64,000 bases of DNA. Origin: Mugil cephalus. Lineage: Eukaryota; Chordata; Actinopteri; Mugiliformes; Mugilidae. Where the stretch lies: the NCBI RefSeq assembly GCF_022458985.1, contig NC_061773.1, positions 4,780,001-4,844,000 of the forward strand, given 5' to 3'. Below, piece by piece: positions 34,801-61,375 of this stretch. The notes under the pieces were generated by a model, which was not told where the DNA came from, did no database searches, and worked only from the letters and a program-made list of their open reading frames with translations. Both the position numbers and the translations under genes were made by a program. Position 1 is the first letter of the stretch. Every line of letters starts with the position of its first letter.

Positions 34801-35184
34801 ACACCACAATGAAACACAACTCATCTGCTTCATCAGTCACCTCACTGGTGTTTTGTCTCTGACCTGTAGGAGGCGCTAGAGGCTTGTCAGACACGTATCT
34901 CCAAGATGGAGCTGCAGCAGCAGCAGCAGCAGGCGGTGCAGTTGGAGGGTTTGGAGAATGCCACAGCACGGACTCTACTCGGAAAACTAATCAATGTGCT
35001 GCTAGCTGTTATGGCGGTCCTTCTGGTGTTTGTGTCCACAGTGGCTAACTGTGTTGTCCCCCTAATGAAGACACGCAGCCGCACGCTTTCTACTCTGCTC
35101 CTTGTTATCCTTCTGGCCTTCCTCTGGAGGCACTGGGATGCCATGTCGGAGTGTCTGCATCGCTTTCTTCTGCACCCCAGATGA
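27775..35184 (+). CDS. tmcc1: TMCC1, ER-anchored coiled-coil protein
   Basis: Five coding exons: 27775-28377, 31167-31586, 34093-34577, 34658-34793, 34870-35184; 652 residues (human 653). The coding exon appears to begin near 27600 with 5' UTR. The N-terminal third has [20 protein letters not shown] and [11 protein letters not shown]; the middle carries [20 protein letters not shown] and [14 protein letters not shown]; a second coiled coil runs about 470-575. Two C-terminal hydrophobic segments lie at about 589-612 and 621-636, in [20 protein letters not shown] and [20 protein letters not shown]1 sits in the rough ER, binds ribosomes through its coiled coil, and acts at ER-endosome contacts where actin-dependent endosome fission occurs. 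It is strongly conserved here. The third-exon intron (31587-34092) is packed with repeats. The 3' UTR runs to an AATAAA near 36198. Confidence 0.97.
28670..28955 (-). mobile_element. SINE-like fish repeat with tRNA-type promoter boxes
   Basis: Read on the minus strand, the right end has GTGGCTCAGCGGG (A-box-like) and TTCGATCCCC (B-box-like), the usual head of a tRNA-derived SINE. The text reading ...GGGGTTCAGTGTCTTGCTCA on the plus strand and TTTTATATAGTGCTACTGG is widespread in fish genomes. A (CA)n run interrupts it. Confidence 0.6.
28762..28821. repeat. (CA)n microsatellite
   Basis: About 60 bp of CA dinucleotides, inside the SINE-like repeat. Confidence 0.98.
32620..32760 (+). repeat. 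Direct repeat, left copy
   Basis: AATCAAGTCCCA is followed about 45 bp later by TTATTGTCCACTA and then AATGAACC, in the same order and spacing as at 33110-33235. The copies have diverged substantially. Confidence 0.5.
33110..33250 (+). repeat. Direct repeat, right copy
   Basis: Same order of shared words as 32620-32760. Between the copies, GGTTTGATTCCCG at about 33038-33050 resembles a tRNA B box. The pair may be a duplicated SINE-like unit or the ends of a larger element. Confidence 0.45.
33720..33910 (+). mobile_element. Tc1/mariner transposase N-terminal fragment
   Basis: The plus-strand frame reads [20 protein letters not shown] and then [15 protein letters not shown], the helix-turn-helix DNA-binding part of a Tc1-like transposase. 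It stops at TGA near 33905, with no catalytic domain, so it is a fragment in the tmcc1 intron. Confidence 0.7.
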
Positions 35185-38640: not shown

Positions 38641-38702
38641 TAATTTTTTATTGCAATAACCAAGTTATTCTGTGGCCTGAACTGTAGCCTATCAACCAAA
38701 TC

Positions 38703-39918
38703 ATGTCCATGACAGGTGACAGGTGGCATTTTCTTCATCCACTAATTTGTTACTGTGGTGTCCAACCAAAGGAAAGTACCCGCTCATCAGCAGCAAGTAT
38801 TGCAGCATTGAATGACTTGGATGATACCCAGCAAGATGCAGGACTCTGGTACTACAGCCTAATGAATGACATAGGTGATGAATGTTCTGCCCCTGCTAGA
38901 GGAACCTTGAGCTCCAGGGATAATTCCCCCGACAATGCACAGGCCTCAAGCTTGGATGCCTTACTCCATGAGATCCAAGAGCTTCGGGAGAACCTCGTCA
39001 AATCTGAAGAATCCTTTGAAAGCTTTAGAGCTTACTACCAACGAGAATACTCAGTAATCTGGGCAGCTGTGCAAGAGGATAAATGGAGGTACTCTACCAT
39101 TCAGTAGTCTATGGGCTGGGGAAAAAAATCCATATCTTGTTTGTGATGTGCTTCTGTTGTCATTTTGCAGGCGTGACCTTTTAGAAGAGCAGCTCAGTGA
39201 CTTGACAGAACTGTATCAGAATGAACTTTCAAACTTGAAGGAGGAACTAGCCAGCCTGGAGGATAAGATCGCTTATCGGTCTTATGACACTGCAGCAGAT
39301 TTTCATGTAAGTTGCAAACAAGTGGGCAAGTGGTCCTGAACTTGATCCTGTGATAAAGTAATTGAAATTTGATTTTTGATTGCCTATTACAAAAGCATGA
39401 CTGTTACAGGGATAATTTTGGGTCATGTTTAAGATCCTGGAGCAGCCACCTGATGTCAAACTCCTCGTTTATTGTCCATCTCTATTCTGTTCAAATTCTG
39501 AAGTAACATAGATCTTAAATACTGTGTATTTCCAAATGAATAATACATTACTACTTCAGCATAGGATAACTACGAATTGTACCATTTTGTCTGTGACCTG
39601 TAGGAGGCGCTGGGGGCTTGTCAGATGCGTCTCTTCAAGATGGAGCAGCAGCAACAGCAGCAGCATGAGAGTTTGGAGAATGCTACAGTACAGATAGCAC
39701 TGGAAAACCTGATAAATGCGCTGCTAGCTGTTATGGCGGGCCTCTTAATGTTTGTGTCTACAATAGCCAACTGTGTTGCCCCTTTGATAAAAACATCTGT
39801 CCGAGTGTTTTTTACAGCGTTACTTTCAGTCTTTTTCTTTTTCCTGTGGAGGCACTGGGATGTAATTTCAGAGTATGTCCGTTTATTCATCGCTCACACT
39901 GAAAAGGGAAAAAAATAA
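38703..39918 (+). CDS. tmcc1-like truncated duplicate (last three exons)
   Basis: Three exons: 38703-39088, 39171-39306, 39604-39918; 278 residues if the ATG at 38703 is used. They are homologous to tmcc1 exons 3-5. The second and third exons have exactly the same lengths as in tmcc1 (136 and 315 nt), and intron phases and splice sites are kept, so this is a DNA-level duplication rather than a retrocopy. The protein keeps a coiled coil ([36 protein letters not shown]) and both C-terminal membrane segments ([30 protein letters not shown]). The region matching TMCC1 residues 1-375 is missing. The first 90 nt of the duplicated exon are out of the ancestral frame and contain a stop there, so a new start must serve, if any. 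AATAAA lies near 40082. It could be a short ER tail-anchored protein or an old, still-open relic. Confidence 0.7.
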
Positions 39919-40452: not shown

Positions 40453-41634
40453 TTAGTCTGCAGCCTTCTTTGCTCGCTTCCCAGTAGCTTTAGAAGGGAC
40501 ATCACTGCCAGCTTTAGTGGCCTTGCTCTGGGATGCCTTTTCAGGCTTCCCCTCCTTTGTCTTCTTTGCAGCTTTAGTTTTGGTGCCCTCACCATCACCT
40601 CCCGCTTCAGCTTTCTTCGCTTTAGGCTTCTTTGCTGGTGCAACCTTTGAGGCAAGAGCCTCGTCATTTTTCTTTGACTTTTTAGGAGGCTTCAAGTCCT
40701 AAAACACAAAAGAAAACACTAGAGTCAATTAGTTTAATATTGGATGTGCAGTCCAAAAAGTATCAAATCTGAAAGGTCAGCTGCTCCTCTCCCACACTTG
40801 TTGCACCCGATCCTCAAACACTTTTGATGCCTTACCTTTGGTGATTTTGTTTGTTCATTTGCAGCATCTGTCTTCTTAGTGGCACCTTAAAGAGGTTACA
40901 AGCTATTAAGACAGACATGGAATAAGCTGATATTACTGGATGTTTTGTCATTTTGTTTTTACCTGCTTTTTTAGACTTTTTGGCTCCATCCTTCGTTTTG
41001 CCCTTGGCTGCTTTTGGAGATTTTTGGACATTGGGATCTGCATTCTCGCCCTTTGGCTTTGACTCTTTCACTTTTGGTGCGAGCTTAACACATAGGGAAA
41101 TATGCATGACGTCCGTTAATAACATTTAATCAGTTTGGCCGCAGCTTCACATTTAACGTCTCACCCTGAATTTCCCCGTCGCGCCTGTGGTGACACTGGA
41201 GTTTGCAGGCCGCACTAAAGTGCCATTCTCAATTCCTTTTTTCAGGGCTTTGCGGACCAAATACTTCAACCTCACCGAATCCACAGAGGGGTACTTCTGT
41301 TTAATATAATTCTGTATGGCTTGTGATGAGACTCCTTTGCGCGAGTCTAATTCTTTAAGCGCTTCTTTCACCATAATGGCAGTGGAGGGATGAGCTGCAA
41401 TTTTACGCACCGCCGCGGCACCTACACAGAGGAAAAGATGTGGAGAAAATACAGAACACTGACCACACACGGTTTACAAATTTGCTGCCTTTAAGTTCCG
41501 GGCTCAAAAGTCACGTGGCTCTGGCTTTTTAATGCCGTTTGCGTACTACCTGGCGCTTTCTCATCCGTCTCTTCCACCGCTACATCGCTTGAAGACTGTG
41601 CAGGCGCCTCAGCTGCTGACTTTTTGGGAGGCAT
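40453..41634 (-). CDS. h1m: Linker histone H1, oocyte/embryonic H1-8 (H1M) type, with introns
   Basis: Five exons in transcript order: 41550-41634, 41165-41421, 40963-41083, 40836-40885, 40453-40698; 252 residues. Residues about 34-112 form the H1/H5 winged-helix globular domain: HPSTAIMVKEALKELDSRKG, VSSQAIQNYIKQKYPSVDSV, KYLVRKALKKGIENG and TGATGKFR. The tail is Lys/Ala-rich (SPKAAKGKTKDGAKKSKKA, KKPKAKKAEAGG). Replication-dependent H1 genes lack introns; a five-exon H1 is the pattern of the maternal H1-8/H1M genes, and human H1-8 lies near TMCC1 on 3q. It would bind nucleosome linker DNA in eggs and early embryos. The minus-strand AATAAA near 40415 indicates a polyadenylated mRNA. It converges tail-to-tail on the tmcc1-like duplicate. 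Confidence 0.88.
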
Positions 41635-42480: not shown

Positions 42481-42519
42481 GGGCACACTGTTAACACTAT
42501 TGGAATATACGATCACCCT

Positions 42520-43172
42520 CTCATCCTTCAGCAATGGGGCTCAGGAAACACCCAGGACTGGAAGGAGTACCAGGGAAGGTGCTGAAATCATGTGCCCATC
42601 AGCTTGCTGCAGTACTCACCAACATCTGTTGCTGCAGCAAGCCACAGTCCCCACCTCTCTGCCCCGATACGTACACCAGGATGCTGTTTGTTGACTGTTT
42701 GTTTAACTGGTCAACAAACTGCACAAACTACAGCTCAGAACCAAACTTCTGTCGGTGGATGATGGACTTCCTGACAGACAGACCTCAGCATGTTAGGATG
42801 AGCACCTCTGCATCCTCCTCCATCGTCCTCAACACAGGGGTGCCACAGGGCTGCGTCCTGAGTCCCATCCACTTCACACTTTACACCCTTGACTGCATCA
42901 CCTCCTGAGATACCAACACGGTCATCAAATTTCCTCAAATTACCACTGTGGGACTGGTCAGTGGCAGCAATGAGGCTCCATACAGGGAGGAGGTCCTGAG
43001 GCTAGTGGCCTGGTGCTGTGACAACCACCTCAACCTCAATACCAGAAAGACCAAAGAAATCATCATTGATTTCAGGTTGAGGACAATGTCGCACACAGTT
43101 CTACGGAAGAGGTGGTGGAGCAGGTCTCAGACACCTGTATGGAAGAACTGGAACAAAGTCAGTGTCCACTGA
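42520..43172 (+). mobile_element. Decayed LINE reverse transcriptase fragment (L2/CR1/Rex1 group)
   Basis: Reads GLEGVPGKVLKSCAHQLAAV, then RMLFVDCLFNW, WMMDFLTDRPQHVRM, and LNTGVPQGCVLSPIHFTLYT, the last being reverse transcriptase motif 4/B'. In a shifted frame, APYREEVLRLVAWCCDNHLN and LNTRKTKEIIIDF follow, which come after the YADD region in this group. The catalytic YADD box itself is degraded, and ORF1 and the endonuclease are missing. It is a 5'-truncated dead copy just upstream of receptor gene A. Confidence 0.85.
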
Positions 43173-43386: not shown

Positions 43387-46300
43387 ATGTCTAGGCGCCT
43401 GTTGTTCATCATCCTCATGTGTAAGTTAAACCTCCTACAGATCTAGCCATTATCAGTGTGGACTTTTACAAACAAATGAAGACTCAGAACTAACAACTAT
43501 TTAAAAAGAGAAAAAACGAATCAAGTTTTAAATCTGTCCACCTTTAAAGTTATTAATATGGTATTTTACCTCTCATCATATTTTATTTCAAACAGGTTTG
43601 TTTCAAGAAACTCAAGTACAAGGTCGGTTTCTGATCTATAGCTGTGCTTTTATCACTGTGTGATTAATTGTGGTTTGTTAATTAACTATTTTCTAGCTAA
43701 TTTTACAAATATTTTTCACTACTTCACACACGTACTTGCGGTTTCTCATTTATAATCTTATGCGAACTAAGTATCTGATAAAATATGTCCGTTCTGTTGA
43801 ATTTCCAGCTCTTCCTCCAGCTACACTGACAGTGAATCCACCACTTATCACAGAGACAGACTCAGTCATGTTGAGCTGTGAGGCTCCGTCTCACATTCCA
43901 GTGTTTCAGTGTTACTTCGACATTGTGAAACAAAAACACACTTTCAAAAATTTCGAGTGTGTTCAGACACTGACAGGAACTGCCCTGCTGTTGATGTCTC
44001 ATCAGAGTTCCCCTTCTGAGGTTAACGTCAGATGTTTTTACACTGTAAAGTATGGAGATGTAGATACTCCATCTCCACACAGTGACGTATCCTCCATCAC
44101 CGTACAGCGTGAGTGACCTTTTACTGCTTTTACCTTGTTTCAACATATTGTCAGACCATCCGTAAGATAACTAACATCACTACAGTAGGACGTCTGTAAA
44201 TGTCAGTTTCACCTTTTTGCTGCGACATGCCGTAGGCTTGATTGCAGACTGTTACAAACGGTCACATCTTATTTACCGACTTTCATCATGTAGGTCAAAA
44301 ACCAGAGATGAGTCTTCAACATGCTGTAGATGTTTATGTCTTCACTTGTTCTCTGCCTGCATCTGTTGAACATGATGCTACGTGTAACCTGTACTTTGGG
44401 GAAGAGAGTCGTCCAGTAGTAACAACAACCGCCTGGAACACAAGGAGCTCAAAAACCAACCAGTTGTTCTGTCTGTTTACTGTTGACACTGATGATTTGT
44501 TGAGACGTCTGCACTCACTTCAACAAAAGGATGCCAGCTGTGATTACAGATGGGGAAGTGAACCAAACAATTTGTCTCCTCGAAGTGATGGATACAACTT
44601 GATGGGTATGTGAAAGATGCTACTTCACAGTAAATGACAACGCATTCTATGAAATAATGGACATTTTGAAAGTGAATTGCTACTGAATGTACCAATTGTT
44701 AGAAACACCGTGCAGTGTGCTTTTTGAATCTGCCTATATTTTAATACAATTTGCACTGTGATATGTGATGAGTAGTTCTCCATTACTGCCTCTTGCTGTT
44801 TTACCTCATCAGTGTACACTGAATCGGCAACATGTAATAATAACATATCTCAATAACACATTTCGCACTAAACCAGCTGATTAACAGACTTTTTTTTTTT
44901 TTTTTTTTAGAACACATTGAAAAATATATACTATATACTGCATTCGAGTCATGTATTCTCCATCCTATTATGAAGTGTGATGATGATGGTCCAGAGCATC
45001 TTAACATGTTATTTCTATAAATGTTTAGATGTCTTTTGTTTTTTTACATATATGTTTTTGAAGCAGATTCAACTTTTTGTACATCCACTGTCTTGACTCC
45101 TACCACTTCTGTGAGCACAGCATCAGGTAACAGAAGTTACAGATTGTTGTTCATGTTCTGTGTTTCAAATGACCCATTTTTGAAGCATAAGATAGAGCCA
45201 CATTTCAGCTTCAGTGTGAGTAAGTTAGAGTCTCCTGAGAGTAAAAGGAATAAAAAGCTTTTTATTCCTTTTACTCTCAGGAGACTCTGTACTGTGCTGT
45301 ACTGTAGACTCCGTATTGCAACTGCTTTGAAAATATTGGCTGCTTCGTTCATGAAAACAAGCAAAAATATAACAAATGAGCAGGTAAATTAGAGTCTTCA
45401 ATATTATCTGGCAAGTAATTATCATTCTAAAGAAAATCTCCTCTATGACTGTACAGGAAGCCAGCGGTCTCCAGGAAACACACCGGTTACCACCAGCCTC
45501 AGTAATGTGGCCACTGCAGCTGAAACAACTCTTGAACACACACCAGAAAACAATATTACTGGTGAGACTCGAATGAGTGTTTTAAAATGTAACTATGCAT
45601 CGCTGTGAATTCTATTAAATGTTTTATGTTTGTCTTATTCAACTGTCATTCAATTTATCTAAAACCCTGCAAACACTTTCATTATACACACTTTGCAGAA
45701 TGTGGAAAAAATATGTACATAAAAATATGTTCAATAACATTTAATCGTACTTCAGACACACACAGTATGTCATGTTTGAATAATGTGTGTTTCCTTGGCA
45801 GCAACACATGTTGTATAATTGCCATGCTTCTCCTCAGAGCACTGTGGGAGCACATGGGCGTCGGTATTTCAGTTAGAAGTAAAACTTCTTTGCGTCCTCA
45901 GAGAAAGTAACATCAAAATGGAAGATGATGGTAGTTGTGGCTTATTTTGGAGCAGCTGTCACCATCGTCTTATTTGTGCTGTTTCTTCTCATAGCCAAAA
46001 GGAAAAGAGGTGAGAAATATGTCAATGTATTCTCTGTCCATCATCTCCAGTGTTTTTTTGTTTGTTTGTTTTAATATTTATACATGCAGTACATGTTAAA
46101 ATATATGACTTAAATTTAACATGATGAATAAGTTTTTCTACTGAGATGTTTTACAATGCCCATGGCATTAAAATGTTTCTTGTCAGTTTGATGAGCTTGA
46201 ATTAGTTTCATTAATATGTATGAAATAATGTTTGTTGTCTAGTTTGATTTGACTTTGAGCTCATTAATTTACAATCTCTATCCTTGAAAATGATTGGACA

Positions 46301-46996
46301 TTAGCTTCCGCTGCAGAAGACTGTGTGATGAAAAACACTGACCGTGGAGGACCGGTAATTAAATATTTTCTTCTGTCAGATGAAATATTTTATTTACAAC
46401 ACGTGAACAGCAACATTAATTAAGATGAACAAATGTGTTTATGTGTTAATGTGTGTGTGTGTTTTTCCTGTTGTGTCAAGTTGCTTGATAAAACCTCCAC
46501 AGTGATCACCTCAGTACCTGCTGCTGGCTTCCCTGCTGGTGAGATGCCTTTTGCTTTTCTGATGCAGGATGAAGGACAGGTTTCATGCTTCAGTGTTGAA
46601 AAAAACAAAAACAACTATACACCAGAAATTTTTTTCTGTGTTACAGGCAAATATTTTTTGGCTTTTGTAGTTAAATAATGAAGGATGCAAACCTTTGAGT
46701 AACATTGTTGCCTTCTCTCCTAATCAACGCATAAAACAGCAGTTAAACATTTTGTGATGTAGGCATGTGACCCTACAACAATTATATGTGTGGTGTTTTT
46801 CTGTTACCTGCAGACTCTGAGAAGCCGAACAGAACAGACGTGGAACATGTAAGTGAGATCAAAGGGCACAGCTGTGAATTTCTAGCTTCGCTGATGGTAG
46901 ATTTAAAAGCGTCTCACAGTTGTTGTGTTTTATTTCTAGTCGGATATAAACGACACGTACGCCAACATCTCCGATGAGCCGGCTGCACACACATGA
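43387..46996 (+). CDS. Receptor gene A: type I membrane protein with two four-cysteine modules
   Basis: Eleven exons: 43387-43420, 43596-43622, 43809-44108, 44294-44605, 45067-45126, 45457-45561, 45902-46009, 46305-46354, 46481-46538, 46814-46848, 46940-46996; 381 residues, all in frame. It starts MSRRLLFIILMC (signal peptide). Module D1 (exon 3) has VMLSCEAP, FQCYFD, FECVQTL, VRCFYTV; D2 (exon 4) has FTCSLPASVEHDATCNLYFG, LFCLFTV, SCDYR, LSPRSD. A Ser/Thr-rich stalk follows (two exons, 60 and 105 nt), then a transmembrane exon (VVVAYFGAAVTIVLFVLFLL, ending AKRKR) and a four-exon tail ending NDTYANISDEPAAHT. I do not recognise a named family; Ig-like D1 is plausible, while D2 lacks the usual Ig DxGxYxC motif. 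The layout resembles innate immune receptors. The function is unknown. A poly(A) signal lies near 47908. Confidence 0.75.
45227..45288. repeat. Perfect 62-bp palindrome in a gene A intron
   Basis: Two 31-bp arms (45227-45257 and 45258-45288) are exact reverse complements with no spacer, meeting at AAGCTT. The arm begins AGAGTCTCCTGAGAG and ends AATAAAAAG. Beyond both ends the symmetry stops at once. Confidence 0.97.
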
Positions 46997-49207
46997 TCAC
47001 AGAAACACACTGAAATGTGGGACACCATCTTGTCATCCAATCAATTCTACGCTGAAAAAAGTGTAACCTTGCTCAATAATGATGTCCAGATATCGCATCA
47101 AAATATTTGACTTCATAGAATCTAAATCAGGTCCAATTCTTATGACCTGATTATTTTATGCTGATGTAAACAATAATACTGCACTTGACTCAACCTTAAT
47201 TCTTTGCTTTGATATATATTATTTTCTTAACATTTTAGTTAATGAACCAAACTAATAAATTTAAATTGAACCAACCTTATATATTCACTTTTAACTGAAT
47301 TATTGTTTGCATTGACACCAGTTAGTTTATTTACATAAACCCAAACTATATTTTTCGCATTTAATTTGACTAGACTTTTGTTTCCCATCTTATAAACTCT
47401 ATAAAAAGAGACACTTGGCCAACAGATTACATTAAAAGTATTTATTAGTCTTTAACATATGAACCATATGGAACATATTAACATTAGGCAATTGGCCTTC
47501 ATTTGATTTAATTATCAGCAACTGCTTTGCTACTTGCATTTATTTTTGGACGAAATCCACCCAGGACTTAATTGACGTCCACGATGTCAAATGGTGCGTT
47601 TGGCCAGCATGCTGAGAGAGAGAGCTACAGGATTAACGTGTGCTCTGAGTGTGCAATGCACAAGTAAAAATATTACCTGCAGGTCATGAAGAAAAAAAAA
47701 TTGAGAGAAATCAAACACATTGTTTTGGGTCCTTTTGGACGTATATTTAGTTCAGTATAAATCAAACTTGATGCCTCTAAATGCAAAGAGAATGAGTTTT
47801 ACAATCAAATCAATAACTTTATCCTGTTTGAAATGTCAGTTATTAGTTTGAATGAACAACTGCATGTTACACTTTTTTCAGTGTACATGTGACTTGTCCT
47901 CAAACCTAAAATAAAGAATGTTTCAGATACTGTGGGAAACATTTTGGAACTTGAACTTGTGGTTTAAGTTTTCTTTGTTGGCTCTGATGTTGTGACTGTG
48001 AACTACCCGACATGCTCAAAATATCGATAGTATTGATAAATCATATCATGTGATATTGAACTATCACCCAAAATACACAGTAACATAAGGAGGAACTTAA
48101 CTGTGTTTTCATTGTGGAGACTGTGGTTTGTAGTGCCATTCAATTGCATTGTTTTTGTGTTATTCCCACTCTTTCGTTTCAATTTATTTATTTTTTTTCA
48201 CATTTTGGTAAGTGGGCTAGAACGTTATCGCATGAAGGGGGATTAGTGCACGGCTGTTATGCTAGAATTCATTAATTTTCACAAATGTTTTTTGTGACAA
48301 AGATCTCTGTAGTTTTTTAAGCCATCAAGTTAATGAATCAAAATTAAAGGTGTATTTCCTCAAAAATGAGTCCAATTTAAAGTCTATTCTGATGGTCACA
48401 GGTTCTATTTCTGCTCATTACTGCTCGATAATCTGTAGGATAATATTAGTTTTTAATTAACACCTAGAAGTCACATTGTCTTTTACAGGGGTTTTCTTTC
48501 TGTGTTCTGTATTTTCCCACAAAGTCCCGGTTTTATCCACAGTGTCCAATCCTGAGTGTGTTCATCCTTCTCATGTCGTTCTGTGTTGTGTTACATATGC
48601 AGTTGTGTGTCTGCTTTTAATTCATGTGCAATATAATGTTTATGGTCTTGGTCTGTCTGTGAATGGGATTTTGGGAGGCCTGTTCTATTTTAGTAGTAGT
48701 AGTAGTAGTAGTATTTTAAGCGTATTTTCTTTTTAAAGCACCACTGAGATACTGAGAGGGGTATTATGCAATTTAGTTGTAACATGCATATAATGATAAT
48801 AAAGGCTTTTTACTTTGTAATTTCCAATTCATCTGTGACTGAAGTGTTGTTGTGTTTTCGCTTAATTAATCCTGCACTCTTCTCCACGTCTTCCAGTTAC
48901 AAAGAAATGTTGAATTACACACTGTACTTATTTTTAGCCAACTCTCACAACGGGACCACTTCACAGAGTGGTTAGCATGGCAGACTGCAGTCATCATGAT
49001 GTCACATCAGTTTTTAACCAATTAATAAATAAATACCTTTCATATCGAACAAATAGGGACTATGACTGTGTGAACATTTTACTATAAATGACTGCAAGAT
49101 CTTCTAAAAGAAGTTTGAATAAACTTGCAGTCATAACAGGCCCGGGTTAAAGTCAATGCATCCTAGATCAAACATTTGAATTTCAATTTATTTGCATTTA
49201 TTTTCAG
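46997..49207. other. gene A 3' region and spacer to gene B
   Basis: Gene A 3' UTR runs to an AATAAA near 47908. Another AATAAA lies near 48797 without a recognised gene before it. A (TAG)n run is at 48691-48713. No exon was seen until the relic at 49208. Confidence 0.5.
48691..48713. repeat. (TAG)n microsatellite
   Basis: About seven TAG units. Confidence 0.95.
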
Positions 49208-49340
49208 AGTGACAACAGTTGCGTCAGTTCTAGGAGATACAATGTATGGCTCTCCAATGTTTTTCTTTTGAACTTTCTCATGCATTATGGCTAATGAGTT
49301 AGATATAAAACCATGTTTTAAAGACCAAATCATTAAATGT
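49208..49340 (+). pseudogene. Relic terminal exon of a fourth receptor copy
   Basis: TTTTCAG|AGTGACAACAGTTGC at 49202-49222 matches the last exon region of gene B at 53784 (AGTGACAACAGCTGC), and similarity continues through TTTCTCATGCATTATG versus TTTCTCATGTACTATG. No other exons of that copy were found between gene A and this point. Confidence 0.6.
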
Positions 49341-49660
49341 TAAAGCGTGTTTGTATTAATATGCTTTATTTAAAATGATTCAATCTGCTCCAAACTTTAG
49401 ATGAACACGACACACAATACATGTACACCAACCAGCAAGAAAACAAAACGAAACAAAACAAGATTTATTGCAAAATATTAAAACGAAAATGGAGAAGATG
49501 AAAAACACACGGCTTGAACAGAATAATTTCGACACTAGTTATAGGGTTGAATTATAGTCACACGTATCTGACGTTAGCGTATAGTTAGTGTCCACTGAGG
49601 TTCATCAGATCTAACTAAAAATAAATGTGTTAGATGCTTTCAGAAGATTCTGTTCTTAAC

Positions 49661-49690
49661 CTTGCTGTGGTTTTCCTGTGGTGGTTGTTT
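49661..49690 (+). promoter_or_regulatory. Conserved ETS/RUNX-like block upstream of receptor gene B
   Basis: CTGTGGTTTTCCTGTGGTGG about 80-105 bp before the ATG at 49769; it has RUNX-like TGTGGT on both sides of TTCC. A TATAAA-like TTTATAAAG follows at about 49718-49726. Confidence 0.5.
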
Positions 49691-49768
49691 TCAGGTAAAT
49701 GAAACATAGGTCGACGTTTATAAAGTCACACACTCACGTCTTTAACAGTGTCTGCGTTCAGCTTCATC

Positions 49769-51299
49769 ATGGCTCAACACCTGCTCTTCATCATCCTCAT
49801 GTGTAAGTTAAACCTTCTACGGGTTTTCTCATTACTTATATTACAAACCAATGGCAACTCAGTAATAACATGTAGTGTTATTTTTTAATTGTAGATCATT
49901 TTATGTTGTGTATTTTTACAGCCTGTGTTGTTGCATATTGAGTAACTGCAGTGTGGTTATTATTACATGTATTTAACAACCTATTGACTTTTTATGTTAT
50001 TATTTCCAACAGGTTCCTTTGATGAGATTCAAGGTCAGTGTCTGACCTATTATATTTCCAGACGTGCTACTATTACTGAAGGCTTTAGTTTATTAGTGTC
50101 TGTTATTATTATCTATGTGTCTAATAGTCTATTGACTATTTTTATATCAAGTTGAAATTCTGATTTATTTATTTTTAAAGTGGAGTGCAGACTGTCACGT
50201 TATATTTGACTTATTTTTATTAATTCCCATGTAGGACAAAAACCACAGATGAGACATCAGCATTTTGAAAATGTTCATATCTTCACTTGTTCTCTGCCTG
50301 CATCTGTGGAACATAATGCTACATGTAACCTGTACTTTGGAGAAGACAGTCGTCCAGTAGTCACAACAACCACCTGGAAGACAAGGAGCTCAAAAACCAA
50401 CCAGTTGTTCTGCAAGTTTGCTGTCAAAGCTGATGATCTGTTGATACGTCTACACTCAGTTCAACAAAAAGATGTCAGCTGTGATTACAGACTGGAAACT
50501 GAACCCGTGTCTTTGTCTCCGCGTAGTGATGAATACAACCTGACAGGTAAATGCCAACATGTTCTTTGACTTTTAATAAATTCTAATAAATTTAATGAAT
50601 TCTAATAAATTGTTGCAAACATCAGTCAGTATGTTTTCACATTTGAATCCATGTTAATAAGACATTTTTCTTAATTTCAACCTCAAAGTACAAAAATCTC
50701 CCTAACAAAAACAATTCCTCCCTCTCACACTTTTCCTCACACATTTTCAGGATGGACTAAAATTGTCCCCTCCTGTCTGTAAATGTAGGGAATTAGTTGT
50801 CCATAGTTTATGGTGTATGTCATGACTTGACCATGTCTGAAAGCTTGATTCATGTCTGAAGTGTTTTATCTCCATGAAATAGTTTCTTGTGGCCTTGTTT
50901 GACTAATGCAGTTACATGTTTGTGTTGTTGTTACAGTAGCTGTATCTATGAACATTTATATCAGGTCCATTGGTGCTGGTATTATTAGAATGTGCAATAT
51001 TAAAATGAGTTTAGTCTGCATCAAAGTAATGTATGAACTGACAAACCTTTCAATTACAAATGAAATGTTCATAACATGGGTAAAAACATAGTAAAAGTCT
51101 ATTTGTGTGTGTAACATACCTGCACAAATGTCAGTTTATCTGTACAAAAATGTACTTTCTTTTACTGCAGATATTGTGGTGACAGATTCAAGTGAGATTC
51201 ACACAAAACCAACATTTACTATGACCACAGGTAGGACATGAATTACATCCAAATAACGATCCAGGACATCATCACATTTTACTTCTTTAAAAAAAAAAC

Positions 51300-51380
<81 letters not shown>

Positions 51381-53624
51381 ATGCAGCAGATTGGACTGTC
51401 TGCCCTTGCAGCGTCTCCACTCCTACCACCACTGTGAGCACCGCATCAGGTACATCATGTCATCAAGAATAAAAAAGTGTCTGTGTAAAAAGATTATAAT
51501 GAAACTCAAAAGTAAAATATAACATTTCAGCATGTCAAATGCAACTGGTTTGGATGCCTTGTTCAGTCTAAAGAAGCAGATGTGTGGACTAAAAGTTGTA
51601 GAAGGAAAATGAGCAAGTGGACAAAATATTACTGGCATCGTCACAAGAAACTTGTCTAAGCCAGCACAGAAAGCCAACGCCTTGTAGGATCCACATAGTT
51701 CTCTATTGGTAGAACCTGTGAGGACCTGGAAGGCTGCAACGTAAAGTGGAGACACATGACAGAGTTACAGGAGTAAGGGTTTATTTCATGAGACAAAAAG
51801 GCGTCAGGTGAGACCCTGTAGTTGTCTTAGGCGCCTTCATAAAGACCCTTAATTCAGTCTTCTCAGGTGTGACTGGTTAAGGTATTTAAGTTCAAGCCAA
51901 AGATGCTTCAACAGCCACTAGAGGCCAGTAGAGGTACAGAGGGAGGTACCACTGTCAACAAGGCAAGAAGATCAGATGCAAAACCCTGATAAGTCTCAGA
52001 ATCAGAAACCTGGACAGTTATGAATGAAAAATGAACCAATATTTAAAAGACCAAAAGGAGAAGTAGCACTAAAAAAAAACATTAAGTCATCATTTTGTCT
52101 GTACTTCTGTCTTATCTTGGTCACGTATGACTGAAAAATAAAGTGATGCTGGTTTTGATTGTGATTTCACTGCTGATGGATTCAGCAGGATGAATGCACA
52201 TCCATAAAGGAGCTTTATGTGTAATCACATGATGCTCTCGCTGAACGAACTTGATGAAGTGTGAATGATTCTCAGTATCTACATTTTTTGACTCTGTGTA
52301 TCAGTCCAGTTACCTCTGAAGCCATCAAATAGACTTGGTGATTATAAAGGACTACATCTCCCACACATTTATTTCTTTATTGATCTGAGCCTATTCAGTT
52401 AAACCTGATACCTGACACTTAAATGTAGCCTCTATCATTTTACTCAAAACCTTTAAACAAACAACACATTTATCTCTGCTATCACTGCATGTTCAAGTGT
52501 ATGAAACATGCAGTTCCAAGCTAAAGATTATCTTTTATAAACAGAGTCACACAGAAAGCAGACTACACCGGTACTTACTGAAACAGGTTATAATATAAAC
52601 CACTTACTGTATCTGTCTGCTTCTAAACCTGTAACTAAAAACTTAATTGTGTAACATTTCTAGTTTGTACAACATGTTTTGCTCTGTAGCAGCACAGTAA
52701 AGCAGCTCGTGTTATTTAATAATGACTCTCGTCCTATAGGAACACAGTCGTCTTTCTTTTTCAGTTAAAATAAACTAGTTTGTGTCCTCCCAAACAGAAA
52801 GTTCAAAATGGGAACTGCTAGTAGTTGTGTCTTGTCTTGGAGCAGCTGTGGTTCTGATCTTAGGGGTACTGGTACTTCTTGGAACCAAAAGAAGAAGAGG
52901 TGAGGAGATTGTGTCATTGTGTCAATTGTCATTTAACCTTGTACGTCCAAACAGACTATGTTTTAACAGTGTTAACACAGTCCAGATGTTTCATAACATA
53001 ACAAAGTGTTTATTGTCAGTTTGGGCTGGGATTACATTGAAAAAAGATACATGAGGGGATGTCAAGGAAATGGCGTGACTAAGAACCAAAGGAATTAGTC
53101 TGGAATAACTATGTTAATGTATTTGTGCAGTATATACACACTGAACATTATGTAAAGTATTTATAAATAAATGACTAATGTTACTTCCATAGCTGTAAGC
53201 ATTTCTGACACTTGTGACTGATCAGGCTTGTTCTCTACATCACTTTTATTTATACATGGATGGTTAATTTGCATTTATTTCTGAAGTTGTGCTTTGGTTT
53301 CTGTTTCAGATGATGGAAAGTATTTGGTAAGTCTCAACGATAGACAGTCCTTCCACTAACTGTCCTCACTCGCTCTTCCTTCAGTCTAACACCTTATTAA
53401 ATCATCTGCAGGCTGGCTTTGATGAAACCTACAGTATTGTCACCTATGAGTTCACAAATGGTGAGCCGTGTTTTATTTCTGAATACATAGACAGACTGTG
53501 AACAAGTACAATGAATTAATTTGCTCTGTGTTTCTCTACGTTTCTGTCTTTGTTGTGACATGTTACTACTATGCTGAATACAATGACTGTTATAGAGGAA
53601 CAACTGAAAAACACACTGAGCTGA
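49769..53624 (+). CDS. Receptor gene B: single four-cysteine module, type I membrane protein
   Basis: Exons: 49769-49802, 50013-50033, 50235-50546, 51171-51230, 51390-51449, 52798-52899, 53310-53326, 53412-53460, and a likely last one at 53596-53624; about 227 residues. It starts MAQHLLFIILMC. It has only the D2-type module (FTCSLPASVEHNATCNLYFG, LFCKFAV, SCDYR, LSPRSD). Two 60-nt stalk exons follow, then the membrane exon (LLVVVSCLGAAVVLILGVLV, ending GTKRRR). The tail is short: DDGKYL and AGFDETYSIVTYEFTN, giving three tyrosines. The 3' end is uncertain. Exon 53596 gives EEQLKNTLS and a stop; splicing instead to the gene A-like last exon at 53784 would stop after one residue. A poly(A) signal near 53926 supports a transcript through both. 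A 76-bp TG run ends 11 bp before exon 51390. Confidence 0.68.
51303..51379. repeat. (TG)n microsatellite abutting a gene B acceptor
   Basis: About 76 bp of TG. The acceptor of the 60-nt stalk exon at 51390 lies only about 10 bp downstream, so the repeat occupies the branch-point and polypyrimidine zone. Confidence 0.97.
51450..52797 (+). other. Long gene B intron before the membrane exon
   Basis: About 1.35 kb between the second stalk exon and the transmembrane exon. No further stalk exon like those of gene A or C was recognised. Confidence 0.5.
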
Positions 53625-54178
53625 TTAAATACTGATCAGCCACTTGGTGGTGCACATTCTGCTGAAAACTGCTAACGACTAGACATCCATGTTGTTGCTG
53701 GTTCAATAATGAAATGTGTGCATTATAAAATGAACATTTACACATATAAATCTAAATCATATTCATGTTTTTACTTTTCATAGAGTGACAACAGCTGCAT
53801 CAGCCCTGAGAGATAAAGCGTACAGCTTTGCAGTGTTAAAGTTCAGATGTTGTTTTTCTGGCATCTCCTCTGATTTCTCATGTACTATGTAGCTGAGTTT
53901 ATACTTTTACTGTGTTACAGTGAAAAAATAAAAACCATAAACACAAAAGTTGAAGTTCAGTGTCTTTTTTATTTGTTCACAGTGTAACACAAAACATATG
54001 CTTGTACCTGTTCTTTACATACATTTGTGGGTTCAACATAGACGTGAGAAATAGTTTACCTGTCAGAATAGTAGTTGCATAGTTATTTACAGTTGTGGGT
54101 TTAAATGTGAAGAGCTTTACACACGCACGCACTCCCTTTATGCATGTTTCTGTGGTCTGTAGATACACTTCTGATAGC

Positions 54179-54210
54179 TGTTGTGGTTTTCCTGTGAACA
54201 TTTTCTGCTA
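54179..54210 (+). promoter_or_regulatory. Conserved ETS/RUNX-like block upstream of receptor gene C
   Basis: CTGTTGTGGTTTTCCTGTGA then ACATTTTCTGCTA, about 55-85 bp before the ATG at 54264. TTCC is kept; the downstream RUNX-like word is changed to TGTGAA but an upstream TGTGGT remains. Confidence 0.5.
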
Positions 54211-54263
54211 CTTGGTCAACGTCTGCAGTCACACACTCAGTTATCTGCTTTAACAGCTTCATC

Positions 54264-57200
54264 ATGGCTGGACGCCTGTTGTTCATCATCCTCATGTGTA
54301 AGTTGAAAACTTCCTTTAGATTTAGTCAATGAGCAGCATATGTTAACATAACATCAGACATTGTGTAAATGTTAAGCCACATTTAGTCTTTTTATGGTTG
54401 ATTTTTGTATTTTTTTGCGTGCTGTTATTGTGTTCATTTGTTGAGGAAGTGCGGTGTGTCATCACAAACTAATTTCCGTAGTGAGACAAACTGTCCATTC
54501 TGTCTATAATTGTGTATTTGTTACTGTGATAAGGAACTTCACTGTTCAGTCCAAATCTTATTTAATAATTTAATAATGAGTTATTATTACATGGATTTAC
54601 ATTGTTGATATATTTTACTTCCAACAGGTTCCTTTCATAAGATTCAAGTACAAGGTCAGTCTGTGACTTATAATCTTTCCAGTTCCTTCTTGTGTAATCA
54701 AACTTTAGAAGGACAACGTGTTGCATTTAGTTTTTGTAGTTTTGTCAGTTTAACAAAACTTCATTCAGAGTAATTATTTTCATAACAGTTTAACTCGAAC
54801 ATTAAAGATGGCTCAGACGTATCACTATGATCACTATGTTGAATGTTAATTTTAAGATATAATGAGTTTGAAACTAGAACTTCTGTGAATGTCAACACAG
54901 ATTCAGACAGTTACACTTGACTTCAGATTCATGTTATATTTCCTGACTTCTAATAATCTTCATGTACGTAGGTCAAAGACCAGAGTTGAGTGGTCATCAT
55001 ACTGAAGATGATTATATCTTCACTTGTTCTCTGCCTGCATCTGTGGAACATGATACAACATGTAACCTGTACTTTGGAGAAGAGAGTCGTCCAGTAGTAA
55101 CAGCTAAAACCTGGAAGACAAGGAGCTCAAAAACCAACCAGTTGTTCTGTCTGTTTACTGTTCAGACTAATGATTTGTGGAGGCATCTATGCTCAGTTCA
55201 ACAAAAGGATGTCAGCTGTGATTACAGACTGGAATATGAAGCCAACACAACTCTGTCTCTGGCTCCTCGTAGTGATAGATACAACCTGAGAGGTAAGTCA
55301 ACGATACTAGTTTACAGTAAATGACCACATGTTCTTTGAAATTTATCAAACAAATGTCAAATCAACTGCTAATCAATTGAACAAGCACATTATTTGCATA
55401 TTAATGAGACAGTCATACAGTCAAACATGCTGAAGTCAAAATAAACTCATCTCTCTCTTACTTATTCACTTACTTTCTGTTCAATATGGACTAAAATGCT
55501 TCTCTCTTAATGTACTTGTTATAGTTTATAGAGTATCCTGTGAGTCATGACTTAGAATACTTTATTTGTTATAGTCAGTGTTTTATCTTCATAAAATTGT
55601 TACTTGTGGCCAGGTTAAGTATTGAGGCAAATAATTCTTTCTATATTCCAGATTATTTTTATTGTCATGTTTCTCTGTGTACTTGTGTACACAGGGAAAC
55701 ATTAACTCTCAGAGGGGGCTGAGTGAGCATGTATGTTCAGGGAAGGGCCTTATTCTCTCCAGTAACATATGAAACACTTCACACAGACACTGTTTTCATA
55801 CAGTATCTGTGTATTATTGTTCATATTTCTTTAATTTCCTGATACACCAGTTAGTTGATAGTTAACAACAAATATTACCACCACCAGGGTTTTGAAAATA
55901 GTTTTACAATGATGTCGTTTTGACTGCATCAGCTGTTTAGAAGCTCCAGTTTGTGTCACTGTTAAACTGAATTCATGGATTTATCATGATATTTTTTCAT
56001 TCATTCCTTCAGTTAAGCTTTTTAATAACCACATAGGAACCGCTGCCTTTATCTGTTACTTTCTCACCAAATAATCCTGGACTTTAGTTCAACATTTGTA
56101 GTTTCGATCTCACCAGATGCCCGGTAGTGGGTAGACGCCCAGTAGTGGGTCAGTTCTTCATTAACTTTTCTTTCCTGGGAACATGAACATCAGAATACAC
56201 CTATAGATGCTGAGAAATGTCACAAACGCACCTTTTCATGTCGTCTTGTTGTGAATGAACACATTTCACAACCATGTAACAATAAGTTTTTCTTCAATCC
56301 AAGTGCAATATATTATACACATACAATACCACTGTCACACTGTTTTTTAGACTATTATTTACTCTTTTACTCTAAGGATGTTTGTGTACTTTCACTGGAG
56401 GGGAGATTCTCTCTCCAATTTCACTGTATGTTGACATGGACAATGACAATGAAGTCTATTGTATTGTATTGTATGTTCTGTGTTTGTCTGGGCAGAAATA
56501 TCATCAGTGTTTATTCTTAATGCAAATCTATTTTCTTTATTGTAGACTTTTTCCAAAACGAATCAAATGAAAGACGACGTGTGACCACGATGACCACAGG
56601 TAGGAAAATATCCAAACAGATGAGAACATCTGAACTTGTTACTTTTGTAAAAGACTGCACATTGTTGTTTTGCATTAACACAGGCAGTTCAGCTGTTAAC
56701 ATGTCAAGAGACACCACTCCTACAACAACAAGACAACCTGACAACAAGATATCAGATGATGATCTGAGTAAGTTAGCATAAAATCAACCGTATTTGACAG
56801 AGCCCTTTAAACAGTGGTTTAAAAGTAACAGGACACCTGACTGTTCAGTGTTCCTTGGCTAACTCTATGTTGTTTTACAAAGCGCTCTCATGTGTGAGTT
56901 AATGGATTGTTCCCCTTTACACTAAGGTCAAGTCATGCATAAGTAAGAGGAATAAAAAGCTGACCGTGAGAAGAGATTTAATAATGAAACTGAAAAAAAT
57001 AGCAGTGTAACCTCCTGGCCCCCGACCCGGTAACCTGTATAACAGAGTGTTCCTCAGTACGGTGTCTGCAGTGGCTCATTAAACATCAGCACTAACATAG
57101 TGACTATTCTAAACACCGGAAGCCAACACATTCAATACACGTTTCACCTGAAAACAATACTGTCATGATAAGACCATGATAAGAACATCAGATAAATAAA

Positions 57201-60200
57201 ACATGAGACACAATTCTCAGAGACAGAAAGCTGCAGCTTACATAAACACACAAAAGCAAACTAGTTGCAGTTTTACGCTTCAGAAAGAAGAAGGAACACA
57301 AAAAAAGGAACACCATGACCTCACCTCTGCCTTCAAACGTGGTGCCGCTTCGGTTTTGTCTTGACCACATACGGCTGTTAGTTTTATCTGACACGCTGAT
57401 ATTTCTCAGTGACTTCATCACTAAAAGGAAGCAGAGTCATCCAGTTACTTTTGAAACCTTTTATTTAAGGACTCTGGATTTAAAAAGACAGTGCGTAGCA
57501 CACCATATTGACCTGAATCAATTTAAATTAAAGCTGATGTGTTTAAGAATAAACCAAAAAATAAAAGATGGTCATAGTGTTTAACTGTTGTCTTACACTC
57601 TTCTCTCTTTTTTTTCCTTTTACTCTTCAGACTCCACTGCTTCAACTACTGTAACAAAAGTTACATCAGGTAACAAATGTTATACTCTGAATATGACAGG
57701 AAATAGTTCAGTGCCCAAAGGTTGGTTATTATTATTATTTATTTTATTTATTTATTTATTTATTTTTACATGAAATTGACATATTTTATTCATTTTTTAA
57801 AATTGACTTCTTTCTTTGTAGATACTATGGATAATATGAACCACGCAACAGATAATAAGACCACAGGTATTACTGTTATGTTATATACAACATGTAAAAA
57901 CCAATCCACAAAATCAACTCGTATGAATTTTCATCATGTTATGAATAACTCAAGTAAAACCAAGTCAGTTTTTCTTTGTATTCACATTTTGTAATATGCT
58001 TCAGTTGCTCCATCAGGTCAGACTGAGAACACTGATAGTTCTTCTGTCTCGGTCACATCAGAGAAACCAACAACAGGTGACATGTTACGTTCTCAAAGAT
58101 TCACTTCGTTTTCTGAAAGTTTGTGATGTTAATAACTTTTGATATTTTTGTGTTTTCTATTCCTGATATAACTTAGTCATTACTCCAGATATTTTGACCT
58201 CAACTAACACAACCACTATGAATCCAGCTCCTGGTGATGTACAAACAGGTAGGGAACATTTGTATTATTTTAAGACAAAGCTGAGATGCTTTGACTGTGA
58301 GTCTGTTTGTTCCATTAACCACTCATTTATTTATTTTTCTGTCTTCAACCATCAGTCACTGCCAGTCTCAGCTCTACTACCTTTCCCAAAACAGAAACAC
58401 AGACTTGGAAGTTGATAATAGTTGTGGCTTGTTTTGGAACGGCTGTGACTGTCATCTTAGTGGTGCTGGTAATTCTTGGAACCAATAGAAGTGGTGAGAG
58501 CAGTGTGTCATATAATGTCATGTACACTGTATGTCTTTATTATATATCAGGGAATGTCACATAATTGTCTATTGGGCTGGTTTTATTTTTACGAAGTATT
58601 ATCACTTTACAATCTCTGTGCTTTACTTCTGCATTAACGTGGTTGGGTGTTTGTGATCTAGCACCTTGTGACTGTAAAGCAAAACAACTTTATTACTCAG
58701 TCTGACATCTCTCCTCTCTACTTTGTATTTCATGTTTCAGGGACGTCTTCACACACAAGGTAAAAAACTAACATATATATACATACATACAGAAGTTTAG
58801 CTTCAGGAGAAGCTCTTAATTTGTCATTAATCTTTGGGTTTTAAACTCACATAAGTCAAAGACAGAATCTGAGGACATACTTTATGTCCTTCTGACTTTG
58901 CTACTGATGTACTAATCATTTGTACATATCTGTGAGTTACAAAAGTAAATCAACCCTTGTTTGGAGGGTGTGACCCCCTTGTGCAGCAGTAACACAACTA
59001 AATGTCAGCAGCCTACAGCAGCTTGGAGGGATTTTGGGCCATTACTCAGTACAGAACTGTTTCATTTCTGAGATACAGTTAGGCCCATATACACTCACCG
59101 GACACTTTATTATGTACATCTTGCTAGTAAAAGGTTGACGTGATAGCATCACGCAGTTGCTGCAGATTTGTCGGCTGCACATCTATGATGCCGATCTCCC
59201 GTTCCACCACATCCCAAAGGTTCCTCTATTAGATTGAGGTCTGGTGACTGTGGAGGTTATTGAAGTTCAGTGAACTCATTGTCATGTTCAAGAAACCAGT
59301 TTGAGATGATATGAGCTTTGTGACTTGGTGCATTATCCTGCTGGAAGTAACCATCAGAAGATGGGTCCACTGTGTTCATAAAGGGATGGACATGGTCAGT
59401 AACAATATTCAGGTAGACTGTGGTGTTTAAATCATGCTCAATTTCTACCAAGGGGCCCAAAGTGTGCCAAGAAAATATCCCCCACACCATCACCACCAGC
59501 CTAAACCGTTGATACAAAGCAGGATGGATCCATGCTTTCATGTTGTTTACGTCAAATTCTGACTCTGACATCTGAATGTCACAGCTGAAATCGAGTCTCG
59601 TCCGACCAGACAACGTTTTTCCAATCTTCTATTGTAGTCTCAGTTTCCTGTTCTTAGCTGACATGAGTGTGTCTTCTGTGGTCTTCTACTGCTGTAGTCC
59701 ATCTTCTTCAAGGTTGGACATGTTGTGTGTTCAGAGATGATATTCTGCATTCCTTGGTTGTAACCAGTTTGTTGAGTTACTGTTGCCTTTCCATCATCTC
59801 CAACCAGTTTCACATTCTCCTCTGACCTCTCACATCAACAAGGCATTTTTGGAGTGACACAGTCTTAATGATTTGGACTACATGCTACCATATTGGATTT
59901 GTTAATTGTATATTAAACAACTAAGATGCAGTTCAAGTTGAAGCAGACTTTCAGGTTCACCAAACGCTGTGTTTCCGCCGTTGTAATGCTTTGCCAGACC
60001 GTTACTGCAGCTGTTTTAAGTTTGTTAGTCTTCCTTCCTGATCTTTGTCTGTCAGAGTTTGTTTTAAATCTCCTCCATGTGAAAACAATCTCACAGTCTG
60101 ACTGTGGATTTGAGGTTTCCTGTAGGTTTTCCTGCCCAATGAGAAAAAAAAACTCTCATTCTCAAACCTGTATATGATGCGTCTTATATTCAATCTAGGG

Positions 60201-61375
60201 CAGTCGTGGTTCACCAGTATTGACGATAATTGTAGTATCAATGAAATTTCAATATTGTGTTAAAATTGTTATTTTCAATGCAATTCATCTCCAAAAAGAG
60301 AGAAAATTACATAAAGTGGAAGATGGATTTCAGGATGCATTGTTGTTGATATCGTGATAATATCATTAACGAATTTTTTTTGCCCACGATAATCGAGAAG
60401 TGAAAATCTGATGTTGTGACAGCCCTAATTCAATCATTACAGCAGCTAACTCACCAGTTTTGATGGAACAACTTTTCTTTATTTCTTTATCTTTATTAAA
60501 ACATTTAATTTATTTCTGTACAGATCACAAGCCAATATTAAACCAGGTAACGTATAAATTATGTATAAAGTGCTGTTCATTCAAATAGTTCACTGTATTG
60601 GATTTATTTTTATTTATTAAGATTTGTGTTACTTTCTCTCGTAGACTATATATGCATGAACACTATTTGTGATGGAAGACAGGTAATTGAACCAGTTCTA
60701 CTCTCAGATGAATTATGAACATAATAAGGCCAATAAAGAGAAATTAGAGTGTCATAGAGTATTATTCATTACTTTCTCTCTTCATCTCTCTCTTTTTGTT
60801 GCCTTAAGTTGCCTGCAGGTATTGATGAAACCTACAGTGAGATCACCTCAGTACGTGATGCTGGTGTTACTGCTGGTGAGCCATTTGTTTTCCCAGACCT
60901 GAGTGTAGTGTGATGCACATTTAGAACAGGATTCATGGTGTTCATTCAATATTATGGTCAACAACTCATTTTTAGTTTATCGTCAGTGCTACTTCATTGC
61001 AAAATGGCAATAAAAGTGAAAGTGAAATTACTTTCTGATTCTTGTTAATAATTATTTTAAGCTTAATAAAGTACAGTAATAAATATGGAAACAAGTACTT
61101 AACCCGAATCCTACTGTAGTTTCAATGTGTGTGTTATATTTCATACCTGCAGGTTCTGACAAGCTGCAAAGGGAAGAGTCTCAGAATGGACATGTAAGTG
61201 AGGGAAAGGCCCATCGTTATAAATAGTTTTTGCTATGTAACTTTATTAATAGACTCTGACATTTGCTGTCTTTCTTTTCCAGTCAGACATATATCATGTG
61301 TATGCGACCATTTCAGAGGAGCCAGCTCCATCTGCCCAGCAGGATGGAGTGTACAGCCTCCTGCAGCCACACTGA
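54264..61375 (+). CDS. Receptor gene C: four-cysteine module, long mucin-like stalk, tyrosine-rich tail
   Basis: Sixteen exons: 54264-54297, 54628-54654, 54972-55292, 56546-56599, 56684-56767, 57631-57669, 57822-57866, 58005-58076, 58177-58248, 58356-58493, 58741-58759, 60524-60546, 60645-60682, 60809-60875, 61153-61193, 61283-61375; 388 residues in frame. It starts MAGRLLFIILMC, then CSFHKIQVQ. The module reads FTCSLPASVEHDTTCNLYFG, LFCLFTV, SCDYR, LAPRSD. Six phase-1 exons (18, 28, 13, 15, 24 and 24 codons) form a Thr/Ser-rich, probably O-glycosylated stalk (TTPTTTRQPDN, TSTNTTTMNPAP). The membrane segment is LIIVVACFGTAVTVILVVLV. The tail carries DETYSEITSV, SDIYHVYATISEEP and DGVYSLLQPH: Yxx[I/L] motifs suited to SH2 binding or endocytosis, but not strict ITIM or ITAM. 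A Tc1 remnant and a short DNA transposon sit in the 58760-60523 intron. The family is not recognised. Confidence 0.75.
59090..59850 (-). mobile_element. Tc1/mariner transposon remnant in a gene C intron
   Basis: On the minus strand, 59257-59613 reads VMVWGIFSWHTLGPLVEIEH, YFQQDNAPSHKAHIISNWFL, EHDNEF, which is the C-terminal half of a Tc1-like transposase with the second catalytic Asp in QQDNAP. The left margin has CACTCACCGGACACTTTATT, an end sequence common in fish. It is a broken copy opposite to the host gene. Confidence 0.85.
60190..60432. mobile_element. Short nonautonomous DNA transposon, relative of the tmcc1 intron element
   Basis: The left end (AGGGCAGTCGTGG, then CAGTATTGACGATAATTGTA) matches the reverse-complemented right end of the 31738-33658 element. 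The right end (reverse complement AGGGCTGTCACAACATCAGA, then TTTTCACTTCTCGAT) matches its left end. Both ends begin AGGGC, as for a terminal inverted repeat. Confidence 0.6.

Follow-up and report, generated by a model that had tools for sequence, protein, structure and literature searches.

The DNA analyzed here is a stretch of 64,000 nucleotides (nt) of the fish Mugil cephalus, spanning C4:4780001-4844000 and called the window hereafter. It hosts three genes, A, B and C, which feature a four-cysteine module (D2) and are predicted to encode type I receptors. The three genes are the start of a larger array, being three of about 26 loci located on contig C4.

Genes A, B and C

Splice-consistent models predict 11 exons and 377 residues for gene A (43387-46996), 9 exons and 219 residues for gene B (49769-53788), and 16 exons and 388 residues for gene C (54264-61375). 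All genes lie on the + strand. All introns are of the GT-AG type with matching phases, phase 1 being found at all introns up to and directly after the membrane exon. The models bear out the initial annotation, which reported three multi-exon genes in one orientation and a type I architecture; its frame sum holds for gene C, while the 381 residues given for gene A are to be lowered to 377. Gene B is short because its last exon runs into a stop codon after a single codon. The exons are the following.

43387..43420, + strand: gene A exon 1, signal peptide (34 nt)
43596..43622, + strand: gene A exon 2, second part of the split signal peptide (27 nt)
43809..44108, + strand: gene A exon 3, D1 Ig-like four-cysteine domain
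44294..44605, + strand: gene A exon 4, D2 four-cysteine module
45067-45126, 45457-45561, + strand: gene A stalk exons, Ser/Thr rich
45902..46009, + strand: gene A membrane exon, uncharged helix interior
46317-46354, 46481-46538, 46814-46848, 46940-46996, + strand: gene A tail exons, one YxxI motif
49769..49802, + strand: gene B exon 1, signal peptide (34 nt)
50013..50033, + strand: gene B exon 2 (21 nt)
50235..50546, + strand: gene B D2 module exon
51171-51230, 51390-51449, + strand: gene B stalk exons
52798..52899, + strand: gene B membrane exon
53310-53326, 53412-53460, 53784-53788, + strand: gene B tail exons, early stop in the last one
54264..54297, + strand: gene C exon 1, signal peptide (34 nt)
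54628..54654, + strand: gene C exon 2 (27 nt)
54972..55292, + strand: gene C D2 module exon
56546-56599, 56684-56767, 57631-57669, 57822-57866, 58005-58076, 58177-58248, + strand: gene C six stalk exons, Ser/Thr rich
58356..58493, + strand: gene C membrane exon
58741-58759, 60524-60546, 60645-60682, 60809-60875, 61153-61193, 61283-61375, + strand: gene C six tail exons, three YxxI/L motifs

The signal peptide is split over two exons, a 34-nt exon being followed, in phase 1, by one of 27, 21 and 27 nt in A, B and C, respectively. The domain exons are 300 nt (D1) and 312, 312 and 321 nt (D2 of A, B and C) in length, all of phase 1-1. The additional immunoglobulin (Ig)-like exon D1 resides in gene A, and is missing in B and C. 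Stalk exons are rich in serine and threonine (39-45% S+T), and in all three genes the helix interior of the membrane exon carries no charged residue.

The D2 exon forms a direct repeat with three copies of 300 nt, spaced 4.7-5.9 kb apart, the second and the third 85% and 82% identical to the first; at this length and similarity a chance origin is excluded. Neither a fourth D2 nor a second D1 was found in the window by profile search in six frames. The words FTCSLPASVEH, TCNLYFGE, SSKTNQLFC, SCDYR and LLFIILMC are each found in a single copy per gene, three copies in all, on the + strand. SPRSD, also listed as shared by the three genes, is exact in A and B only, gene C reading APRSD.

An intron of gene C hosts, at 59257-59628 on the - strand, an open frame lacking a Pfam match, which presumably resembles the end of a Tc1/mariner transposase.

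The array on contig C4

The genome to which the window belongs (634.8 Mb, 24 contigs) was searched with both domains; all counts are lower bounds. The D1 of gene A gave 37 matches (E <= 1), every one of them on the + strand of C4 at 4.824-5.146 Mb; some of these form pairs in which a single broken domain is matched twice. Another D1 gave 45 matches (E <= 5), of which 37 reside inside the array and eight lie outside and are weak (best E 0.0044). D2 of gene C gave 17 matches (E <= 1). Thirteen are in the array and mark 10 places, of which six are intact, one has an in-frame stop and three are split over two frames; four lie elsewhere and are weak, the best of them (E 0.005) containing three stops.

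Grouped together, the matches form about 26 loci (25 with sequence examined, plus a D2 locus at 4901011 known from its search match alone), distributed on one strand across about 322 kb. D2 is found alone at nine loci, D1 alone, in one to three domains, at 16, and both domains in gene A only. Tandem growth, proposed from the window, is thus seen on a larger scale, and the limit set to the cluster at 61375 has to be abandoned, the array continuing for about 302 kb beyond the window end, up to C4:5,145,785.

A 34-nt signal exon of one kind is found in 25 of the 25 loci examined, and reads MAGRLLFIILM, MAGNLQLLILM, MTGHLLFIVLI or a sequence close to one of these; by a strict pattern, 15 of them also have a second exon of 21 or 27 nt, both patterns having been scored without a shuffled control. 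Membrane exons with an uncharged helix interior were detected in 5 of 11 D1-only stretches scanned, some of which end early, several further candidates being repeat artefacts. In some D1-only loci, the tail exons are similar to those of gene C (SEVYHVYDVIPEEPAAVALDSNAYSTVMKH vs. SDIYHVYATISEEPAPSAQQDGVYSLLQPH).

The tree of 29 D1 domains (midpoint root) splits into two main groups, each supported at 97/91; D1 of gene A sits on a long branch, and its placement is uncertain. The locus at C4:4930941-4932184 combines a signal exon and a first D1 of the MAGN type with a second and a third D1 of the MTGH type. Since its D1 domains fall into both tree groups, exon exchange between receptor types is likely at this locus.

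A near copy of gene C is found at C4:5073115-5080330. Identical bases are 1061 of 1113 aligned in exons and 5537 of 5873 in introns (about 95% and 94%, respectively), and part of the array is therefore young. Exons and introns being almost equally similar, the pair speaks for recent duplication only, and was rejected as a measure of exon constraint. Membrane and tail exons 94% and 100% identical to those of gene B are located at C4:5070643-5071286; no D2 exon was found upstream, so that these exons make up a partial B-like copy. Among D2 pairs dN/dS varied from 0.54 to 0.93 (NG86) and from 0.71 to 0.98 (YN00), values which point to weak constraint or mixed selection and by themselves do not prove diversifying selection.

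The neighbours of the array in the window, as recognized by Pfam matches, are Tmemb_cc2 and linker-histone genes. The linker-histone gene (41153-41473, - strand; PF00538, E 6e-25) adjoins the array, and is a useful synteny anchor. The Tmemb_cc2-type gene spans 31101-35184, with Pfam matches for the frames at 31101 and 34078, and an apparent second copy, 71-89% identical over three stretches, is found at 38688-39918. Directly upstream of gene A, at 42495-42908 on the + strand, resides a fragment resembling a reverse transcriptase (RVT_1, E 2e-4, below the cut-off). The neighbours of the array appear to differ from those of the mammalian leukocyte receptor complex.

Outside the array, the piece C6:28339801-28340400 (L056, 221-340), matched by D1 at E 0.35 only, hosts a frame which starts SLVLSVGGHFVSPEDSVEVTCSPPSSSSTSSCDFYRGD and has the D1-like pattern SV-x-V-x-C-x10-C-x-FY; it could point to another family with this type of domain. 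The D1 match at C4:27.8 Mb reads like an Ig domain of a neural adhesion molecule. Comparison of D2 and D1 with viral contigs gave 47 and 2 pattern matches, respectively, none of which was confirmed as a relative.

Kinship of the D1 and D2 domains

D1 is Ig-like, 27 of its 29 members matching the Pfam model Ig_2, all below the cut-off. The F strand has the sequence V-x-C-x-Y in all 29 D1 and [AV]-S-C-D-Y in all six intact D2 domains. The V-type motif DxGxYxC is absent from all of these, as already remarked for the module in the initial annotation, and a strict V-domain reading is rejected. Fish have expanded several type I receptors of the Ig superfamily with tyrosine tails, such as CD300/CLM, DICP and pIgR-like, and the domains of these, as of NITR, are V-type. 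Published descriptions report the same expansion and tails for NITR and NILT, and V-type domains for NILT; D1 and D2, lacking DxGxYxC, differ.

The SPxSD found at the end of the D2 domain might be read as a remnant of WSXWS, which would make the receptors relatives of class I or II cytokine receptors. Yet WSXWS and C-x-W are both absent, a C-x-Y/F type and SPxSD being found instead, and each domain is encoded by a single exon, all of phase 1. Moreover, the Pfam list of D1, where Ig_2 is so widely matched, contains no cytokine-receptor model, and no cytokine-receptor match above the cut-off was obtained for either D1 or D2. This kinship, already doubted when the module was first described, is rejected as having hardly any chance of being correct. 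SPxSD resembles the SxPSD of LILR and KIR.

No credible Pfam or PDB sequence match was found for D2, in line with the initial annotation, which could not place the module in any named family and proposed a profile search as a check. The idea that the module defies placement finds less support. D1 and D2 have a common plan, all four cysteines being aligned, weakly, in register. Single-sequence comparisons of D1 with D2 of A, B and C are not decisive (local z 0.1, 2.0 and 2.5; end-free global z 1.8, 1.9 and 3.7, respectively). In VIA-align, the best rows for the D2 model, itself of low confidence, are LILR, OSCAR, CHIR, KIR and LAIR domains, 20 of the first 22 rows being of the KIR/LILR type. 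Because D1 is Ig-like, the four-cysteine plan is common to both domains, and the best VIA-align rows are of this type, D2 is most likely, judging from sequence and model, a strongly derived Ig domain of the KIR/LILR type.

The genes combine a signal peptide divided between two exons and domains of one exon each with phase-1 exons, a stalk, a membrane exon and tyrosine-bearing tails. The explanation we favour, with a probability somewhat above even, is that A, B and C open a tandem array, partly young and of uniform orientation, of type I surface receptors of the KIR/LILR/FcR kind, that is, of Ig superfamily members with a gene plan like that of the leukocyte receptor complex.

Several results limit the confidence in this explanation. 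No Ig model of Pfam is matched by any of the six intact D2 copies. The hhalign probability is 1.8%, and the match to CEA is a sum over repeats; an hhalign comparison of three D2 with one D1 aligned the last 28 columns alone. Foldseek, suggested in the initial annotation as a second check, yielded no match of the D2 model at E <= 0.001 and 1,532 of mixed folds at E <= 10, with no KIR/LILR-type chain among the best 50 of these rows. Finally, A, B and C have neither a canonical tail with an immunoreceptor tyrosine-based inhibitory motif (ITIM) nor a charged membrane residue.

The array could alternatively represent a separate fish receptor family, with an Ig- or FN3-like beta-sandwich unrelated to KIR, LILR and FcR, in which the gene plan would be convergent and exon shuffling would have brought D1 and D2 together in gene A. 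The alignment of all four cysteines of D1 and D2 in register, the KIR/LILR-type rows leading the VIA-align results, and the signal-exon plan common to D2 and D1-only loci argue against such a family, which we regard as unlikely without being negligible.

In a further reading, the array may be the equivalent, in fish, of the leukocyte receptor complex, with exon swapping among its loci, a distinct four-cysteine Ig subtype whose third strand would bear, in place of the core tryptophan, a cysteine engaged in a second bridge, and a D2 branch diverged beyond the profiles tried; this is put forward tentatively, at somewhat less than an even chance. The family has a KIR/LILR/FcR-type plan and is filed under no named family, membership by sequence being unproven and canonical ITIMs being absent from A, B and C. 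In keeping with the suggestion that it may be undescribed, no published description was found in a text search of the open-licence literature.

Comparable receptors, tails and significance

KIR, LILR, OSCAR, LAIR and CHIR genes feature, like A, B and C, a two-exon leader, one exon per Ig domain, and stem, membrane and several tail exons; the KIR3DX plan consists of a stem exon, a membrane exon and separate tail exons (PMC8562567). In contrast to this group, the domains of the array give no significant sequence match, lack G-x-Y in the F strand and have two extra cysteines each, and the genes feature a multi-exon stalk rich in serine and threonine and non-canonical tail motifs. FcR and FCRL genes, including Xenopus XFL, are similar to the array in the split signal peptide, the phase-1 rule, the dozens of loci, the YxxL/I/V tails and the uncharged membrane helix (PMC2413239). 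The 21-nt second exon of gene B fits the 30/21-bp rule of FCRL genes (PMC2413239), but the first exon is 34 nt instead of 30, and the second is 27 nt in A and C. Similarity is also below the FCRL level, the D1 profile reaching FCRL4 at E 1.4.

FcRL-like and leukocyte-receptor-complex-like genes reportedly appear with bony fish, the former few, the latter many, catfish being named (PMC4016189). Catfish leukocyte immune-type receptors (LITRs) are the nearest described fish group (PMC4810170, PMC2413239, PMC8562567), as teleost, multi-gene receptors with KIR/FcR-like Ig domains and tyrosine tails (PMC2413239, PMC4810170). The loci might be LITR members diverged in this fish lineage. LITRs combine FcR-like and KIR-like Ig domains (PMC2413239) and are called LILR-related (PMC8562567), so that this possibility overlaps the KIR/LILR/FcR-kind explanation; moreover, a proximal tail region of IpLITR 1.1b devoid of ITIMs still blocked killing (PMC4810170), indicating that non-canonical tails can inhibit. 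Yet the inhibitory IpLITRs described have canonical ITIMs, which A, B and C lack. Membership in the LITRs proper is considered improbable.

The tails are made up of micro-exons with tyrosines and vary, as first reported; the tyrosines number one in A, three in B and five in C. YxxL/I/V motifs number 1, 1 and 3, against 1.2 expected in all by shuffling, and 41 of 20,000 shuffled sets reach five. No strict ITIM, switch (ITSM) or activation (ITAM) motif was found in the tails of A, B and C. Inhibitory Xenopus FcR-like receptors are described as having YxxL/I/V tails and an uncharged membrane helix (PMC2413239). Since this description fits A, B and C, and the ITIM-less catfish tail region inhibits, an inhibitory role is favoured, and by analogy the family probably consists of inhibitory or threshold-setting leukocyte receptors. 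Pairing with ITAM adaptors by the charged-residue route is not expected for the copies seen, their membrane helices having no internal charge. YICM in gene C, presumably a PI3K-type motif, and YAN in gene A, presumably of the Grb2 type, leave room for other signals.

On leukocytes, each protein would present between one and three Ig-like domains, of four cysteines each, carried above the cell surface by a mucin-like stalk. The usual B-F bridge would join the first cysteine of a domain to the last, and a second bridge the middle two. Upon ligand contact, Src-family kinases would phosphorylate the YxxI/L/V motifs; SH2 phosphatases recruited by these motifs would then dampen activation.

Among fishes, relatives of KIR and LILR have been described mainly from catfish (LITR). 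A compact, partly young array with a KIR/LILR gene plan and a definable domain provides concrete candidates for receptors that set leukocyte activation thresholds in other fishes, as well as a profile for searching other fish, and its gene content may vary between individuals. The domain subtype, if real, would reveal how much an Ig domain can change under a constant gene plan.

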